DNA of 10,354 bases from an uncultured Oscillospiraceae bacterium. Lineage in GTDB: Bacteria; Bacillota; Clostridia; Oscillospirales; Oscillospiraceae. Numbering within the stretch: the first letter of the stretch is position 1; each line of letters starts with the position of its first letter. Shown piece by piece: positions 1,410-8,703 of the stretch. The notes below the pieces were generated by a model that was given only the letters and a program-made list of their open reading frames with translations, was not told where the DNA came from and searched no databases. The stretch lies in NCBI GenBank assembly GCA_934635545.1, contig CAKTZN010000061.1:1-10354 (forward strand), given 5' to 3'. The translations under genes and the position numbers were made by a program.

Positions 1410-2240
1410 TCAGAATTCCAAACGGACGATCTGCATGTTCATGCTGTTGTCGCCCACGCGGGACAGAAAGCGGAAGAACCCGCTGACAGAGGGATCCTTC
1501 AGGTCATGATAGCCCAGCATGTAGCCGCGGCTGGACACCTGCATGCCCAGCGCCCAGGGGGACAGCTCCTTTTTGGCGTCCGCCACGGCGAAGTACGCCC
1601 CCACATCCTGAATGTCGGCGGTCTTGAGCCAGGTTTTCAGCATCAGCTTCACCGCCTTGCGGTTGGCGGCGTCGAACACCAGCCGCCCGCCGGGGAAGGC
1701 GGCGTGCATGGCCTGCACCAGCGCCTTGACCTGCTCCGTCAGGAAGTAGTAGAACACTCCCGCCGCGAAGAACACCACGCCATTGGACGCGTCGATTCTC
1801 CCGAACCACGAGGTGTCGTTCAGGTCGCAGGGGATGTTCTCCTCCCGCTCTCCGGCGGGCAGCAGCTCGTCGCGCACTCTGATCACGTCGGGAAAGTCCA
1901 GATTGTAGATCCTGCACTGGCCGTTGTCGCAGCTCCGGCCGGTGTTGTCCAGCCCGCAGCCCAGGTTGACCACCGCCGCGTCGGGATGGCTGGCCAGATA
2001 GTCCCGCACCTCCCAGGCCAGGTCGTTCTGCCGCATGGCCGCCTCCAGAAAGCCGAAGCGCTGCATCAGGCTTCTGGGCTTCTTCTCCAACAGAGTAAAG
2101 TCGTAGTCAATCTCATCCATCAGCCGGATGGCCGTTTCATCATAGAACAGCCGCGGATACAGCGTCGAGCACATCTTCCGCCCGTACAGGGGGATCACCA
2201 GCGTCTCCTGTACGGTGTTTTTTTCGATATGGTATTTCAT
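1410..2240 (-). CDS. Class I SAM-dependent methyltransferase, LCMT/PPM1-like (COG3315-type)
   Basis: This 276-residue protein is a predicted cytoplasmic O- or carboxyl-methyltransferase. Visible features: the SAM-binding motif I VVNLGCGLDN (residues 90-99), an acidic second strand YNLDFPDVI (112-120) whose Asp should contact the SAM ribose, CDLNDTSWF (138-146), and the post-motif strand GVVFFAAGVFYYF (154-166). The NLGCGLD form of motif I, the long helical N-terminus and the length fit the leucine carboxyl methyltransferase / polyketide O-methyltransferase-like family (established family knowledge). The substrate is unknown. The start is the ATG at 2238-2240, preceded by GGAGGA. That ATG overlaps the stop of the gene before it (ATGA), so translation is probably coupled. 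It is the last gene of a three-gene operon and ends at the terminator at 1370-1401. Confidence 0.88.
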   Translation of the reverse strand: MKYHIEKNTVQETLVIPLYGRKMCSTLYPRLFYDETAIRLMDEIDYDFTLLEKKPRSLMQRFGFLEAAMRQNDLAWEVRDYLASHPDAAVVNLGCGLDNTGRSCDNGQCRIYNLDFPDVIRVRDELLPAGEREENIPCDLNDTSWFGRIDASNGVVFFAAGVFYYFLTEQVKALVQAMHAAFPGGRLVFDAANRKAVKLMLKTWLKTADIQDVGAYFAVADAKKELSPWALGMQVSSRGYMLGYHDLKDPSVSGFFRFLSRVGDNSMNMQIVRLEF

Positions 2241-2938
2241 ACATTCCTCCGATAGCCAGCCTCATCCCGGTACTCCGGGTGCGCCTTCAGATAGGGATCC
2301 CGGTCGCCGCAGATGGTGTAGTCGCACTTGCAGCCGTTGGCGCAGGTGGTGGTACGCACCAGCCGTGCGTGGATCAGCTCCATGGACACATAGTCCACGT
2401 TGCACAGGGCGGGCATGATGTCCGTCAGCCCGTTCCTGATGGCAAATTCCGCCGCGGGGCACGCCGTAAACTCATAATAGATGGGCTTGTCCTTCTCAAA
2501 GGGGGCAACCTTCATCTCATAATCGTGCCACCTGTCGCAGCCCGCCTTGGCCGAGGTGAACGCCCGATACATGAGCCTGCGCCAGAAGGGCTTGTTGCAG
2601 TCCACGAATTTCAGCCTGCGGAAGGCGGGCAGGATCAGGTTCTCCTCCATCTCCTCGATCTCCCGGAAGGAGGTCACCGCCCTGCAGACGACGTAATAGC
2701 TCAGGATGGCGATGCAGTCATAGGTGCCGCCCGCCCCGTTGTGGAAGTTCTTCTTCCCGCCCAGGTCGGTGCGCCAGTCGGCGAGAAAGTCCACATACTG
2801 CCGCTGGATCTGCTCCCATACCGCCTCCCGCTGCTCCCGCGGATAGTGGAGGGCGATCTTCTGCCGGATCTCCCTCTTGCAGGGCCTGGAATACAGCACA
2901 TGGCAGGTGCGGTCAAATTGCATCTGGTTGTCCTTCAT
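2237..2938 (-). CDS. L-2-amino-thiazoline-4-carboxylate (ATC) hydrolase family protein
   Basis: This 233-residue soluble protein resembles the ATC hydrolase family. The founding activity opens the thiazoline ring of ATC on the way to L-cysteine (established), but many family members are untested, so substrate use here is inference. Evidence: an N-terminal helical region, FTACPAAEFA (157-166), and a Cys-rich C-terminal segment RTTTCANGCKCDYTIC (195-210) that matches the conserved C-terminal Cys-Asp signature of the family. The eleven cysteines visible are many for a protein this size. It starts at the ATG 2936-2938, which overlaps the stop of the metallo-hydrolase gene by four bases, and it ends overlapping the methyltransferase start in the same way. 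Its own ribosome binding site (GAAGGGTG) is weak, consistent with translational coupling. Confidence 0.8.
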   Translation of the reverse strand: MKDNQMQFDRTCHVLYSRPCKREIRQKIALHYPREQREAVWEQIQRQYVDFLADWRTDLGGKKNFHNGAGGTYDCIAILSYYVVCRAVTSFREIEEMEENLILPAFRRLKFVDCNKPFWRRLMYRAFTSAKAGCDRWHDYEMKVAPFEKDKPIYYEFTACPAAEFAIRNGLTDIMPALCNVDYVSMELIHARLVRTTTCANGCKCDYTICGDRDPYLKAHPEYRDEAGYRRNV

Positions 2939-3798
2939 CTGCCCACACCCTTCAGATAGCCGCTCTTTGCCCCGGCCTCAGTGTCGTCGGACTCGTCATA
3001 GGCGTCGTAGGGGGCGTTGGGATCGTGGACGCGCTTGCCGAAGGGGGAGCACCACTGCTCCTTGTGGGCAAAGGCGAAGGCAAAGTTGTCCGTCCATCCG
3101 GTGTGTCCAGTGATGAACAGCGGATGCAGGCCCCGCTTCTGCAGCTTCTCCTCCAACGCCGCCAGCGACCGGACGGCCAGCTTGTTGTCCTCCGCCAGAG
3201 CGGAGATAAAGCTGTACCCGCCGTCGGCGCCGAACCAGATGGTGTCGCCGGTGAAGAGGTACTTGTCGTCGATGAGATACACCATGTGGCCCCAGGTGTG
3301 GCCCGGCACCAGGAAGCACTCGATTTTGATGCCGTCGATGTCAAAGACCTGCCCGTCCTGCAGCAGCACCTTTTTATTGTTGATGGTCACCTGGGGCAGC
3401 TTATAGAGATGATAGATGACCTTCCGGCGCACCTGGCCGGTCAGGTACCTGTTCTCGGTCTCGCCCACATACAGCGTGGCGTTCCGGAACAGGCCGGGGC
3501 TGTCGGCCTCCACCGCGCCCACATGGTCGGTGTCCTGGTGGGTGATCAGGATATGGCGGATGGACGCCGGGTCGATGCCCAGCCAGCCCATCTTCTCCGC
3601 CAGCGGGTCATAGTTGTACCCCGCGTCGATCATGATGGTAGTCTCGCCCTTCCGGTAAAAGAAGATGTTGGCCACCCACTCCCGGACGCAGGCCACATTT
3701 TCGTCGATCCAGCCGGTGTTCAGCGGCTTGAAGATCTCCTTGCCCCGGTACATTTTGCTCATTTCCTTCTTCTGGAACTCGGTCGCTTTCTTGGACAT
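2935..3798 (-). CDS. Metallo-beta-lactamase (MBL) fold metallo-hydrolase
   Basis: This 287-residue predicted cytoplasmic hydrolase is the first gene of the operon. The MBL metal-ligand motifs appear in order: THQDTDH (86-92), GHTWGH (166-171, His167), FTGDTIW (182-188, Asp185) and a late His in TGHTGW (His232). The first motif departs from the usual HxHxDH: its second His is Asp89, giving H-x-D-x-D-H, so metal site 1 may be altered. Length and motifs fit the glyoxalase II / lactonase-like branch, but the substrate is unknown. The start at 3798 is supported by GGGAGGG about 9 bases upstream; internal Met13 or Met16 would lack so good a site. It is expressed from the promoter at 3894-3922 and probably controlled through the dyads in its leader. 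It overlaps the next gene by ATGA. Confidence 0.9.
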   Translation of the reverse strand: MSKKATEFQKKEMSKMYRGKEIFKPLNTGWIDENVACVREWVANIFFYRKGETTIMIDAGYNYDPLAEKMGWLGIDPASIRHILITHQDTDHVGAVEADSPGLFRNATLYVGETENRYLTGQVRRKVIYHLYKLPQVTINNKKVLLQDGQVFDIDGIKIECFLVPGHTWGHMVYLIDDKYLFTGDTIWFGADGGYSFISALAEDNKLAVRSLAALEEKLQKRGLHPLFITGHTGWTDNFAFAFAHKEQWCSPFGKRVHDPNAPYDAYDESDDTEAGAKSGYLKGVGR

Positions 3799-5598: not shown

Positions 5599-8130
5599 AT
5601 GAGAAACCGTATCACAAGCATACTTCTGGCGGCATTGATGCTGCTGTCCCTGCTGCCGGTACCGTCCTGGGCAGCGGAGGTCACACAGAAGGACGAAGCG
5701 GTCACGGCCACGGAAGGCCAGCCGTCCCCGCAGTCCGACGCCATCGCGGTCACCTCCGTCCCGGAAAACAAATACCTGGGCTGCGACCGGGCAAGCAAGA
5801 TCATCCCCGCCAACTGCTACGTTGACGATGACGGCGTCTACTACGTCACGGATGATTCCGGCTCGATCCGGATCGACGCGGGCAGCGGCGTCATGACCGC
5901 CCGGAAGGCCGTCGTGTTCTCCTCCAGAAGCACCGAAAAGGCGGAGCTCGTGTCCGCGTCGCATATCCTGTTCCTGGTCAACGAGAATATCGAGTATTCG
6001 TCCCCCGCCACCGGCAACAAGGTCGCCAAGAACGTCAATGAGTACCAGTGTGTGCTCTGCGGCAAGACCTTCTATGGCTCCAACAAGGATTACAGTACCC
6101 CCGAAACCGCTGTCGCCTACGATTATGCTTATGCCTATAACCTGGTCAAGCAGGGCTACGTCGCCATCCCCGCCAACGCCAAGCTGGCTAGTGTTCCCTA
6201 CGTCTGGGCTGACGACAGCGCCAGCACCGGAGGAAGCGAAAGCGGCAACATCATCGCCAGCGGTGAATGCGGCGCAGATGGCGATAATGTCCTATGGACG
6301 CTGGATGGCCAGGGTGTATTGACCATTACCGGCGAGGGGGATATGGCGGATTATTCGTCCGGTGAAACAGCCCCGTGGTATGACTATGCCGCATCTGTCC
6401 AGTCCGTCGTTATCGCCGAAGGTGTTACTCATGTAGGAAACCGTGCGTTTATTTATTGTTCTGCACTAACTGACGCATCTCTCTCCAATAGCATCGAATC
6501 TATCGGAACCTATGCTTTCTTTTCTGCCGGACTATCTGACATCGTGATTCCACAGGATGTTGAAACCATTGGAACAAACGCTTTCTCTTCCTGTACACGC
6601 TTAGAATCCGTTAAAACGTGCGGCAATCTATGGTCCGTGGGAACTGATTGCTTCTCTGATTGTTCCGCTCTTACCGAGGTCGTTTTCGGAGGTTATGTTC
6701 GTTCCGTAGGCGGCGGTATGTTTGCCCGTTGCACTTCTCTGAAGTCTATTGTCCTTCCTTCTAATATAAATGGTATGTGGAGCATGTTTCAGGGCTGTAC
6801 GTCCCTGACCAACGTAACACTTCCAGATGGAATTACTGAAATTTCCTCTTCCGCCTTTCAGGGTTGCAAAGCGCTTCAATCGCTTAATCTGCCAGACAGC
6901 GTGACTAATATTCGCGAACGAGCTTTCTCCGAGTGCACAAACCTGAAAGATATCAACTTTCCGGATAATCTGGAAACCATCGACACATACGCCTTTTATA
7001 AATGCCAGAGCCTGACAAAAATTGTTTTGGGGGAACAGCTCAATTTGATTGATGAATACGCTTTCGCAAGCTGCAATGCGTTTGAGGCGGCCTCATTCAC
7101 CAAAAGCAGTAGCTCTTATGGCACGCTCAGTATCGGATTTGGCGCTTTTGCGAAATGTAGCGCATTATCCAATGTATACTACCTTGGCACTTCAAATGAT
7201 TGGGGAACCGTCAGTTTTGCAGATGACAATGACGCTCTCGCAGATGCAGAGCTTCACTATATCTCAACCTCCTGCACTATCGGCAATATCAATGGCATCG
7301 ACGGTATTGACGCCACAGACATGGCATGCCTGCATGAATACCTGACTTCTGGCTTCAATCGTGGCTATTTATCGGGTAAATACTTAAAACAAGTTGCAGA
7401 TCTGAACAATGATCAGGTCGTTGATGTGTATGATCTCCAGCTTCTTTATGAGGTCGTCAGTGGGCTTGCAGATATTGATGATATTAAGCAAAAGCAGCCC
7501 ATTACCTCGCTAGATACCATGTACGCCACCTTCAGCAATTATCCTGACGCATATGCGTGGATTGAAATTCCTGAATTTTCCGAAGCTATGGGCATAGATC
7601 ATGCATTTTCTTATCCAGTCGCCCAACATCCCTCAGATCGTAATTACTACCTCAGCCACAACTTGGATGGCAACACAAATAATGCTGGCACTATTTTTAG
7701 CGAAGCCACTGTAGAAGGCAAAGTTATCAACGGCCGTGATTTGAGCGACCCTGTCACCGTACTGTACGGCCGCAATATGGCAAATCGTACTATGTTTGGC
7801 GGTTTGCAAAGCTTTCTGAAATCGATGGATCTTAATCAGCAGCATCTGGTTTACATGTATCAGCAAAATCGCCGTGTTGCCTATCAAATCGTAGGCGGTG
7901 TGCAATACGACACAAGTCATATTATATATTACCATGACTTTAGTGACGCTTCTATCTTTAATAGCTTCTTTAATCAGTTATGGAACGAAACCGATAGCAG
8001 CACCAATGTAGATTATTCTAACAAACCAGTTGCCGGGGATCGTGTTTTAATTCTATCTGTTGCGAAAAGTAATGATGATAATCACCGTTATCTTATCATA
8101 TGCAAAATGATTGAAGATACCATTATATGA
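5599..8130 (+). CDS. Secreted BspA-type leucine-rich repeat protein with dockerin-like and inactive sortase-B-like domains
   Basis: 843 residues. Residues 1-25 are a signal peptide (hydrophobic LLAALMLLSLL, cleavage after SWA). Residues about 40-205 match nothing I recognise and hold one CVLC pair. Residues about 220-550 are BspA/LRR_5 repeats (units like IGTYAF, VTLPDGITEISSSAFQGC), which mediate surface or host binding in known proteins. Residues 562-630 form a type I dockerin-like pair of calcium loops: NINGIDGIDATD (shifted) and DLNNDQVVDVYD (canonical). Residues about 635-843 follow sortase B (YAWIEIP, YYLSHNLDG, AGTIF, YGRNM, MFGGL, ILSVAKS, HRYLII). The catalytic His is Arg725 and the Cys is Ala822, while Arg830 remains, so transpeptidase activity is not expected. 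There is no LPxTG anchor; attachment may be by the dockerin. GC falls sharply after about 6420. AGGAGG supports the start. The sortase assignment rests on motif order, not on a search. Confidence 0.88.
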   Translation: MRNRITSILLAALMLLSLLPVPSWAAEVTQKDEAVTATEGQPSPQSDAIAVTSVPENKYLGCDRASKIIPANCYVDDDGVYYVTDDSGSIRIDAGSGVMTARKAVVFSSRSTEKAELVSASHILFLVNENIEYSSPATGNKVAKNVNEYQCVLCGKTFYGSNKDYSTPETAVAYDYAYAYNLVKQGYVAIPANAKLASVPYVWADDSASTGGSESGNIIASGECGADGDNVLWTLDGQGVLTITGEGDMADYSSGETAPWYDYAASVQSVVIAEGVTHVGNRAFIYCSALTDASLSNSIESIGTYAFFSAGLSDIVIPQDVETIGTNAFSSCTRLESVKTCGNLWSVGTDCFSDCSALTEVVFGGYVRSVGGGMFARCTSLKSIVLPSNINGMWSMFQGCTSLTNVTLPDGITEISSSAFQGCKALQSLNLPDSVTNIRERAFSECTNLKDINFPDNLETIDTYAFYKCQSLTKIVLGEQLNLIDEYAFASCNAFEAASFTKSSSSYGTLSIGFGAFAKCSALSNVYYLGTSNDWGTVSFADDNDALADAELHYISTSCTIGNINGIDGIDATDMACLHEYLTSGFNRGYLSGKYLKQVADLNNDQVVDVYDLQLLYEVVSGLADIDDIKQKQPITSLDTMYATFSNYPDAYAWIEIPEFSEAMGIDHAFSYPVAQHPSDRNYYLSHNLDGNTNNAGTIFSEATVEGKVINGRDLSDPVTVLYGRNMANRTMFGGLQSFLKSMDLNQQHLVYMYQQNRRVAYQIVGGVQYDTSHIIYYHDFSDASIFNSFFNQLWNETDSSTNVDYSNKPVAGDRVLILSVAKSNDDNHRYLIICKMIEDTII

Positions 8131-8159: not shown

Positions 8160-8188
8160 CAGGACGCCCTGCGGTGCAGGGCGTCCTG
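8160..8188. terminator. Bidirectional intrinsic terminator between convergent genes
   Basis: A 13-bp perfect stem (CAGGACGCCCTGC / GCAGGGCGTCCTG) with a 3-base loop is flanked on the left by AAAAAA and on the right by CCTTTT. It separates the LRR gene from the minus-strand membrane gene. The minus direction has the better U-tract. Confidence 0.9.
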
Positions 8189-8211: not shown

Positions 8212-8703
8212 TCACCGCACCAGAAGGGCCATCACACCGGCCAGCACCGCGGCGATCACCGCCATGCCCACCGTGCCGAACAGCCACTTGCGCTTTTTGT
8301 CCTGCCCCGTGATGTAGGGCTTCATGTCCTCCGTGCCGGGGATCGTCCACGCCCTGGTGTGGCCCACCCACCAGTCGTCCACCAGAAATCGGTCGATCAG
8401 GTTCATCACCGACAGAATCACCAGAAGCTGCCAGAACCCCGGCCAGAAGCCCCGCGCGCCGTTGACGGCGTACACGCACACCAGCACATAGGCCACATAC
8501 CCCGGCATGCAGATCAGCTTGAACAGCTTGCTGTTCCGCTTGATTCGCTCGTGGGTGGTCAGTCCCAGCGCCACGCACCGCGCCTGCACATCGTCGTGAT
8601 AGAGATGCACCATCCCCACCGCGCCCTTCCGGATGCCGAAGGCGCACACCAGCACCAGCAGCACGCCAAGCCCCACGCCCTCCAACAACACTCGCCAGAT
8701 CAT
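8212..8703 (-). CDS. Small four-helix integral membrane protein of unknown function
   Basis: 163 residues. I do not recognise a named family with confidence. Four hydrophobic segments are visible at about 5-24, 61-80, 88-108 and 140-162. A conserved-looking, Trp-rich loop lies between helices 3 and 4: DRFLVDDWWVGHTRAWTIPG (104-123), followed by TEDMKPYI. A basic loop (HERIKRNSK, 51-59) lies before helix 2. No enzymatic motif can be assigned. The start at 8703 is chosen because AAAGGAG lies about 9 bases upstream. An in-frame ATG at 8745 would add an Arg/Lys-rich extension, has no ribosome binding site and would overlap the regulatory dyad. It is a single-gene unit sharing its dyad with the MBL operon, which suggests a linked function. 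Confidence 0.85.
   Translation of the reverse strand: MIWRVLLEGVGLGVLLVLVCAFGIRKGAVGMVHLYHDDVQARCVALGLTTHERIKRNSKLFKLICMPGYVAYVLVCVYAVNGARGFWPGFWQLLVILSVMNLIDRFLVDDWWVGHTRAWTIPGTEDMKPYITGQDKKRKWLFGTVGMAVIAAVLAGVMALLVR

Follow-up and report, generated by a model that had tools for sequence, protein, structure and literature searches.

An open reading frame at positions 5599–8130 of contig CAKTZN010000061.1 (assembly GCA_934635545.1), from an uncultured Oscillospiraceae bacterium, encodes an 843 amino acid (aa) protein that ends in a class B sortase domain without the two catalytic residues, His and Cys. This domain is termed here the pseudosortase. It follows a set of leucine-rich repeats (LRRs) and a dockerin, and one other protein of the same architecture was found (P0002). 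The window is the whole stretch of DNA that was analyzed, 10,354 nucleotides, and its positions are used throughout. The features of the gene are as follows, GC3 being the G+C content at third codon positions.

5599–8130, forward strand: whole gene, 843 aa, an uninterrupted open reading frame with signal peptide, N-region, BspA-type LRRs, dockerin and pseudosortase in that order
5599–5676, forward strand: signal-peptide-like N terminus, residues 1–26, judged by eye
5677–6252, forward strand: N-region, residues 27–218, no family match in Pfam or NCBIfam
6253–7278, forward strand: BspA-type leucine-rich repeats, residues 219–560 (Pfam LRR_5, E = 2.7e-61)
6259–6261, forward strand: change point in GC3, after codon 221 (log-likelihood gain 47.4)
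7279–7494, forward strand: dockerin type I, residues 561–632 (Pfam Dockerin_1 match at 568–616, E = 0.0016)
7495–8127, forward strand: pseudosortase, residues 633–843, a class B sortase domain in which the catalytic His and Cys are replaced
7771–7773, forward strand: Arg725 (CGC) at the catalytic His position, from alignment with sortases
8062–8064, forward strand: Ala822 (GCG) at the catalytic Cys position, from alignment with sortases; Val in P0002
8086–8088, forward strand: Arg830 (CGT), the active-site arginine, retained, from alignment with sortases
8160–8188, forward strand: terminator-like hairpin of 13 pairs (10 G-C), directly 3′ of the gene, pattern match only

The LRR_5 match scores 205.5 bits against a cut-off of 27.7 and thus identifies the repeats as BspA-type. 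The signal-peptide-like start shows 81% identity over 31 aa to the start of P0127, a dockerin protein described below. From about residue 49 to residue 218 the N-region for the most part has no counterpart in P0002; the N-region also contains a CxxC pair (CVLCGKTF). The hairpin pattern occurs 7 times in the region, compared with a mean of 3.3 in shuffled sequences.

The sortase domain and its lost catalytic pair

Residues 633–843 match TIGR03064 (class B sortase) with an E-value of 1.1e-19. The score, 70.8 bits, is below the equivalog cut-off of 153.75, i.e. the family cut-off is not reached, and the Pfam Sortase model shows no match to the domain at E-values up to 1. A sequence search of the PDB gave matches to SrtB chains (best 5jcv, E = 4e-11). 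The predicted structure of the domain has a confident fold with a structural match to the SrtB fold; the input alignment for this prediction held the window sequence and otherwise only active-type sortases. The first-pass annotation, made from the sequence alone, had proposed a sortase-B-like C-terminal domain and a structural comparison with class B sortases, and the three results agree with it.

In an alignment with Clostridium difficile SrtB, Arg725 falls at His116, Ala822 at Cys209 and Arg830 at Arg217, residues that have catalytic or active-site roles according to the available portion of PMC5118464. The codons and this alignment bear out the replacement of His and Cys and the retention of the arginine, as first annotated, and the frame is open to the stop codon, as had also been stated. 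Of 14 positions conserved across 23 or more of 24 sortases, both fused copies have lost exactly two, the catalytic His and Cys. The loss predicts that the domain has no transpeptidase activity on a sorting signal.

Relatives of the domain and of the dockerin scaffold

Among 5.8 billion proteins, a search for long proteins that contain the domain yielded three out of 309 candidates: the window protein, P0002 and P0003. P0002 has an architecture identical to that of the window protein, its domain is 82% identical, and it carries Arg and Val at the His and Cys positions. P0003 is an active-type sortase. In a search with only the domain as query, 661 of 717 candidates passed, and residues were read in the best 120 of the 661. 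All 126 active-type relatives read (these 120, P0003 and L001–L005) have His, Cys and Arg. The comparison of homologs at the catalytic positions, which had also been suggested at the outset, separates the two fused copies from the active-type relatives.

Genome scans gave the same picture. By tblastn 54 of 67 loci were matched, duplicates of one gene included (e.g. L001, L009 and L022); all 49 that are readable at the three positions have His, Cys and Arg, and in the other five (L006–L008, L018, L019) the alignment stopped after His, with the Cys present in their sequence. In the family sample, the domain was matched (E = 1e-12) at 80 places, which lie in 75 of 400 genomes. The loci of 30 places were read and one more is the L015 gene, the 49 weaker places being left out. 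One of the 80 lies in an open frame longer than 400 aa (L047, 504 aa), and the open reading frame listed there is an ordinary 346-aa sortase. No further fused dead sortase was found in the protein searches or in the family and genus loci read.

Directly 3′ of the class B sortase at L047 there is a small secreted-type protein with an SPQTG-like terminal sorting signal (L047:2097–2741), perhaps its substrate; no relative of it was found in the six genomes searched. For three of the sortase matches in family genomes (L043, L045 and G188:C10:41454–41996), the scan reports a single in-frame TGA per match. A scan of viral contigs turned up no relative. Fifteen plasmid records matched, and the ten listed contain distant sortases or sites without annotation, with about 25%–30% identity. 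P0124, in which the start of a sortase lipoprotein runs into a radical SAM/SPASM protein, was set aside as probably joined artificially: its start is 96% identical to P0004 over 164 aa, and its end resembles what we take to be a translated sequencing adapter.

Sequencing error, or one defective allele, is rejected as the source of the missing residues. The window protein (P0001) is represented by two member sequences on five contigs, P0002 shares the Arg at the His position, and by the genetic code a change from Cys to Ala or from Cys to Val requires at least two base changes each.

In one genus, the domain matches at E = 1e-20 are stand-alone open frames of 257–381 aa. Firmicutes bacterium CAG:176 (L005) belongs to this genus, as do metagenome-assembled genomes named Clostridia, Oscillospiraceae and Ruminococcaceae. 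A lipobox-like motif lies near the start in 118 of the 120 closest proteins (the best 120 of 661).

A search using the dockerin and tail of P0002 yielded 11 proteins among 1603 candidates. Seven of them (P0125–P0131) have the dockerin region in common, at 44%–71% identity in the best local alignment, and are without a sortase. P0125 and P0126 are 92% identical through the signal peptide, LRRs and dockerin, and then continue into unrelated domains, DUF3798 and Bmp respectively. P0127 and P0128 consist of signal peptide, dockerin and Bmp; the tails of these two are presumably kin to lipoproteins through the Bmp family. In P0129–P0131 the dockerin is at or near the protein end, which is the ordinary arrangement.

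The Bmp tail of P0126 is 61%–67% identical to open frames in 10 of the 32 genomes of the genus, with a lipobox-like start in all eight that were read, and it retains 147 of the 169 positions invariant among these eight lipoproteins. The DUF3798 tail of P0125 is 77% identical to one lipobox-like protein, in one of the 32 genomes (CAG:176). A lipoprotein-like domain thus appears to stand behind an internal dockerin in six proteins, a small set from a single search. Cohesins score above the cut-off in 25 of the 32 genomes of the nearest genus, and docking of the window protein through a dockerin-cohesin pair is therefore plausible.

Composition, origin and neighboring genes

The neighboring genes in the window encode a P-type ATPase, a methyltransferase, an ATC hydrolase, an MBL hydrolase, a MATE protein, a small unknown protein, PhzF and an ABC ATPase. 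Their best matches, at 73%–88% DNA identity, are in genomes of the genus that has the nearest sortases, which places the window in this group or near it. GC3 of these genes is 0.84–0.91. The methyltransferase (LCM), the ATC-hydrolase-like gene, the MBL hydrolase (1410–3798) and the small gene at 8255–8684 have matches within about 5.3 kb in a single genome, G129.

Within the gene at 5599–8130, GC3 is 0.81 through codon 221 and 0.44 thereafter (gain 47.4 vs a permutation maximum of 9.3, n = 500). For residues 1–218 it is likewise 0.81, close to the value in the neighboring genes. The break lies two to three codons past residue 219, where the alignment with P0002 turns near-continuous. Together these indicate that the part consisting of LRRs, dockerin and pseudosortase has a history separate from that of its present neighbors. 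The drop within the gene suggests that this part is a cassette of foreign origin, or one acquired by exchange, that follows an N-region of native appearance. GC3 is 0.79–0.92 in the five active relatives read at the DNA level; if the domain was derived from such a gene, a long shared low-GC history with the LRRs would have erased the signature. The best tree places the fused pair within the near active clade, beside P0005 with 86% support. Approximately unbiased (AU) tests rejected neither of two alternative placements (p = 0.34 and 0.10), and nesting within the active clade is not claimed.

Retention, decay and other roles

The reading we favor, with a probability of about 0.47, is that a class B sortase of the same bacterial group gave rise to the domain, which became attached to the end of an LRR-dockerin surface protein and is retained there as a binding pseudoenzyme without catalysis. 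This reading is based on the sortase fold, on the absence of His and Cys from both of the diverged fused proteins with the other broadly conserved positions intact, and on kinship: the nearest relatives are stand-alone lipobox-bearing sortases, and related dockerin proteins have other lipoprotein-like tails. The largely retained shape, together with the exchange of both reactive residues, suggests an enzyme reused as a binding part, and loss of the catalytic pair only, among broadly conserved positions, fits a binding role.

Slow decay is a somewhat unlikely alternative. Here recombination would have placed a copy of a sortase behind an LRR-dockerin gene, and the domain, having no task, would drift, its frame remaining open since the product is soluble and harmless. 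Loss of both catalytic residues is in accord with this, as are changes in one or both fused copies at 13 of the 80 positions that do not vary among 13 non-redundant active sortases. The identity between the window protein and P0002, however, is higher in the pseudosortase (82.4%) than in the dockerin (77.8%) or the LRRs (69.4%), their alignment has no gap inside the domain, and decay does not account readily for a catalytic pair that is the sole loss at broadly conserved positions or for the confident predicted fold, subject to the input alignment described above. Compared with L001, the window sequence is near random at four-fold third positions (20 of 52 identical, 16.0 expected), with 141 of 203 residues identical and dN = 0.223 (NG86). 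At ten groove positions, taken from PMC5118464, neither copy differs from the near active sortase P0005 (0 of 10), against 58 and 53 differences over the 211 positions of the domain; four of the ten are invariant in 12 close active sortases.

A number of observations weigh against retention as a binding module. The sparing of the groove is statistically borderline (p = 0.037 and 0.052 for the two copies), the groove positions derive, in the available part of PMC5118464, from a docking model of SrtB from another species, C. difficile, and only two of the ten residues are identical to that protein, so that their role is assumed in this domain. The fused pair sits on a long branch (stem 0.214, tips 0.12 and 0.09, compared with tips of 0.01–0.08 in the near active clade), which implies a weaker or altered constraint, and this faster evolution leaves room for decay. 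Differences between the two copies are rarer at active-invariant positions (9 of 80) than elsewhere (25 of 121), but not significantly so (p = 0.088). In neutral simulations run to the observed divergence, 357 of 2000 were without a stop codon, so that the open frame alone is weak evidence. Only two proteins with the LRR-dockerin-pseudosortase architecture were found. The dockerin type is scarce (2 of 32 genus genomes and 1 of 400 family genomes), and the window dockerin scores 19.1 bits, below the Pfam cut-off of 22.9; two Asp-rich repeats are visible, and the equivalent module of P0002 scores 25.1 bits. A search of six genomes for a possible type of substrate, made without a positive control, gave no match. 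Furthermore, the tailed form of the dockerin was not found in genomes G003 and G004, where the four genes read (L068/L077, L069, L070/L076 and L071) all have the dockerin at the frame end. These terminal dockerins and a recount of the groove positions lowered the probability of the favored reading, and of the scaffold capture discussed next, and raised that of decay.

The comparisons place retention ahead of decay, though by no decisive margin. The first-pass annotation had taken the domain to be maintained and not decaying: the selective loss of the catalytic pair in two proteins fits the first half of that statement, and the faster evolution leaves the second half unsecured. Its suggested binding to sorting signals or peptidoglycan is one way in which such a domain might work. 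The dockerin, the GC3 switch inside the gene, the kindred proteins with other lipoprotein-like tails and the faster evolution go beyond what it described.

A broader proposal, tentative and standing well below even odds, is a modular surface system of Oscillospiraceae-type gut bacteria: the LRR-dockerin scaffold would repeatedly capture the ectodomains of the bacterium's own membrane lipoproteins (sortase, DUF3798, Bmp), relocate them from the membrane to a cohesin-held layer at the surface, and disarm any that are enzymes while keeping their binding face. The pseudosortase would then be a sorting-signal reader or a decoy. The decoy by itself, in which the scaffold shows or sheds, off the membrane, harmless duplicates of the cell's surface lipoprotein ectodomains to catch phages, toxins or antibodies directed at these lipoproteins, is improbable. 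The tails do resemble lipobox proteins of the genus (the sortases L001–L005, and the DUF3798 and Bmp proteins described above), an enzyme serving as a decoy is best dead, and the odd GC3 is compatible with an element exchanged among strains; but there is no known attacker, the Bmp tail of P0126 keeps its invariant positions like a working binding protein, and a decoy does not demand a loss confined to the catalytic pair.

Less probable again is an adaptor, i.e. a domain that binds an active sortase or its substrates and brings the LRR-dockerin protein to where proteins are anchored in the cell wall, its task being location and not the holding of a ligand. The lipobox in the nearest enzymes and a stretch aligned to C. 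difficile residues 155–172, identical in both copies, P0004 and P0005, are in keeping with this, as is S. pyogenes SipA, a signal peptidase homolog that has lost its catalytic residues, retains a peptide cleft and is required for sortase-driven pilus assembly (PMC4049620, available part); among the annotated neighbors in the window, however, there is neither a further sortase gene nor one for a substrate. Unusual catalysis by Arg725 and Arg830, e.g. a thiol-free hydrolysis, is very improbable. One active-site Arg and the groove-mapped positions are retained, yet the nucleophile position holds Ala in the window protein and Val in P0002, which leaves no shared nucleophile there.

If the domain is a retained binding module, the protein would be secreted and docked to a cohesin at the surface through its dockerin, with the LRRs as an adhesive stalk or spacer. 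The pseudosortase would offer its parent's groove with the cutting pair removed. It may hold, uncut, the target of the parent sortase (a sorting-signal peptide carried by a partner protein at the surface), or may contact a partner of that sortase.

Pseudoenzymes exist in many families. The domain has the fold, the motif order and the active-site Arg in common with class B sortases (TIGR03064; SrtB of S. aureus, C. difficile and C. perfringens; Spy0129), and its groove-mapped positions are those of the near active lipobox-bearing sortases. Unlike class B sortases, it lacks the catalytic His and Cys, scores below the TIGR03064 cut-off, and is fused behind LRRs and a dockerin and is not a stand-alone membrane protein. 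The scaffold of P0125–P0128 is similar, in that an internal dockerin is followed by a lipoprotein-like domain, but their tails are of solute-binding type and not sortases.

The nearest precedent in its working is S. pyogenes SipA, which, according to the available part of PMC4049620, is a signal-peptidase-like protein in which the catalytic Ser and Lys are absent and the peptide cleft is retained, and on which pilus assembly, a form of surface-protein assembly, depends. SipA differs in having a signal-peptidase fold with no kinship to the window domain, in standing alone and in having been studied experimentally. From the lost catalytic residues, and from borderline conservation at positions mapped from a groove modeled in another species, the domain is a candidate for a peptide-binding pseudoenzyme of the SipA kind. 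Ruminococcus flavefaciens FD-1 has LRR-dockerin, transglutaminase-dockerin and dockerin-serpin proteins (PMC2930009, available part); the LRR-dockerin proteins have signal peptide, LRR and dockerin as here, and the serpin proteins have a domain after the dockerin. No sortase is among the modules named in that part of the paper, and the window tail differs in being surface-lipoprotein-like. PMC3573020 was rejected as a dead-enzyme precedent, since in the part available the module with a solved structure retains its triad; the same part gives a Cys-to-Ser change in a first-repeat homolog from another strain. No natural sortase domain without the catalytic pair and fused into another protein was found among the titles and abstract openings listed by word searches of the open papers covered.

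Should the domain bind sorting signals, it would read these cell-wall signals without cutting them. Lipoprotein-like tails after a dockerin would widen the known cargo of cohesin-dockerin systems, and would offer a direct route to asking why bacteria of the gut move portions of their membrane proteins elsewhere.
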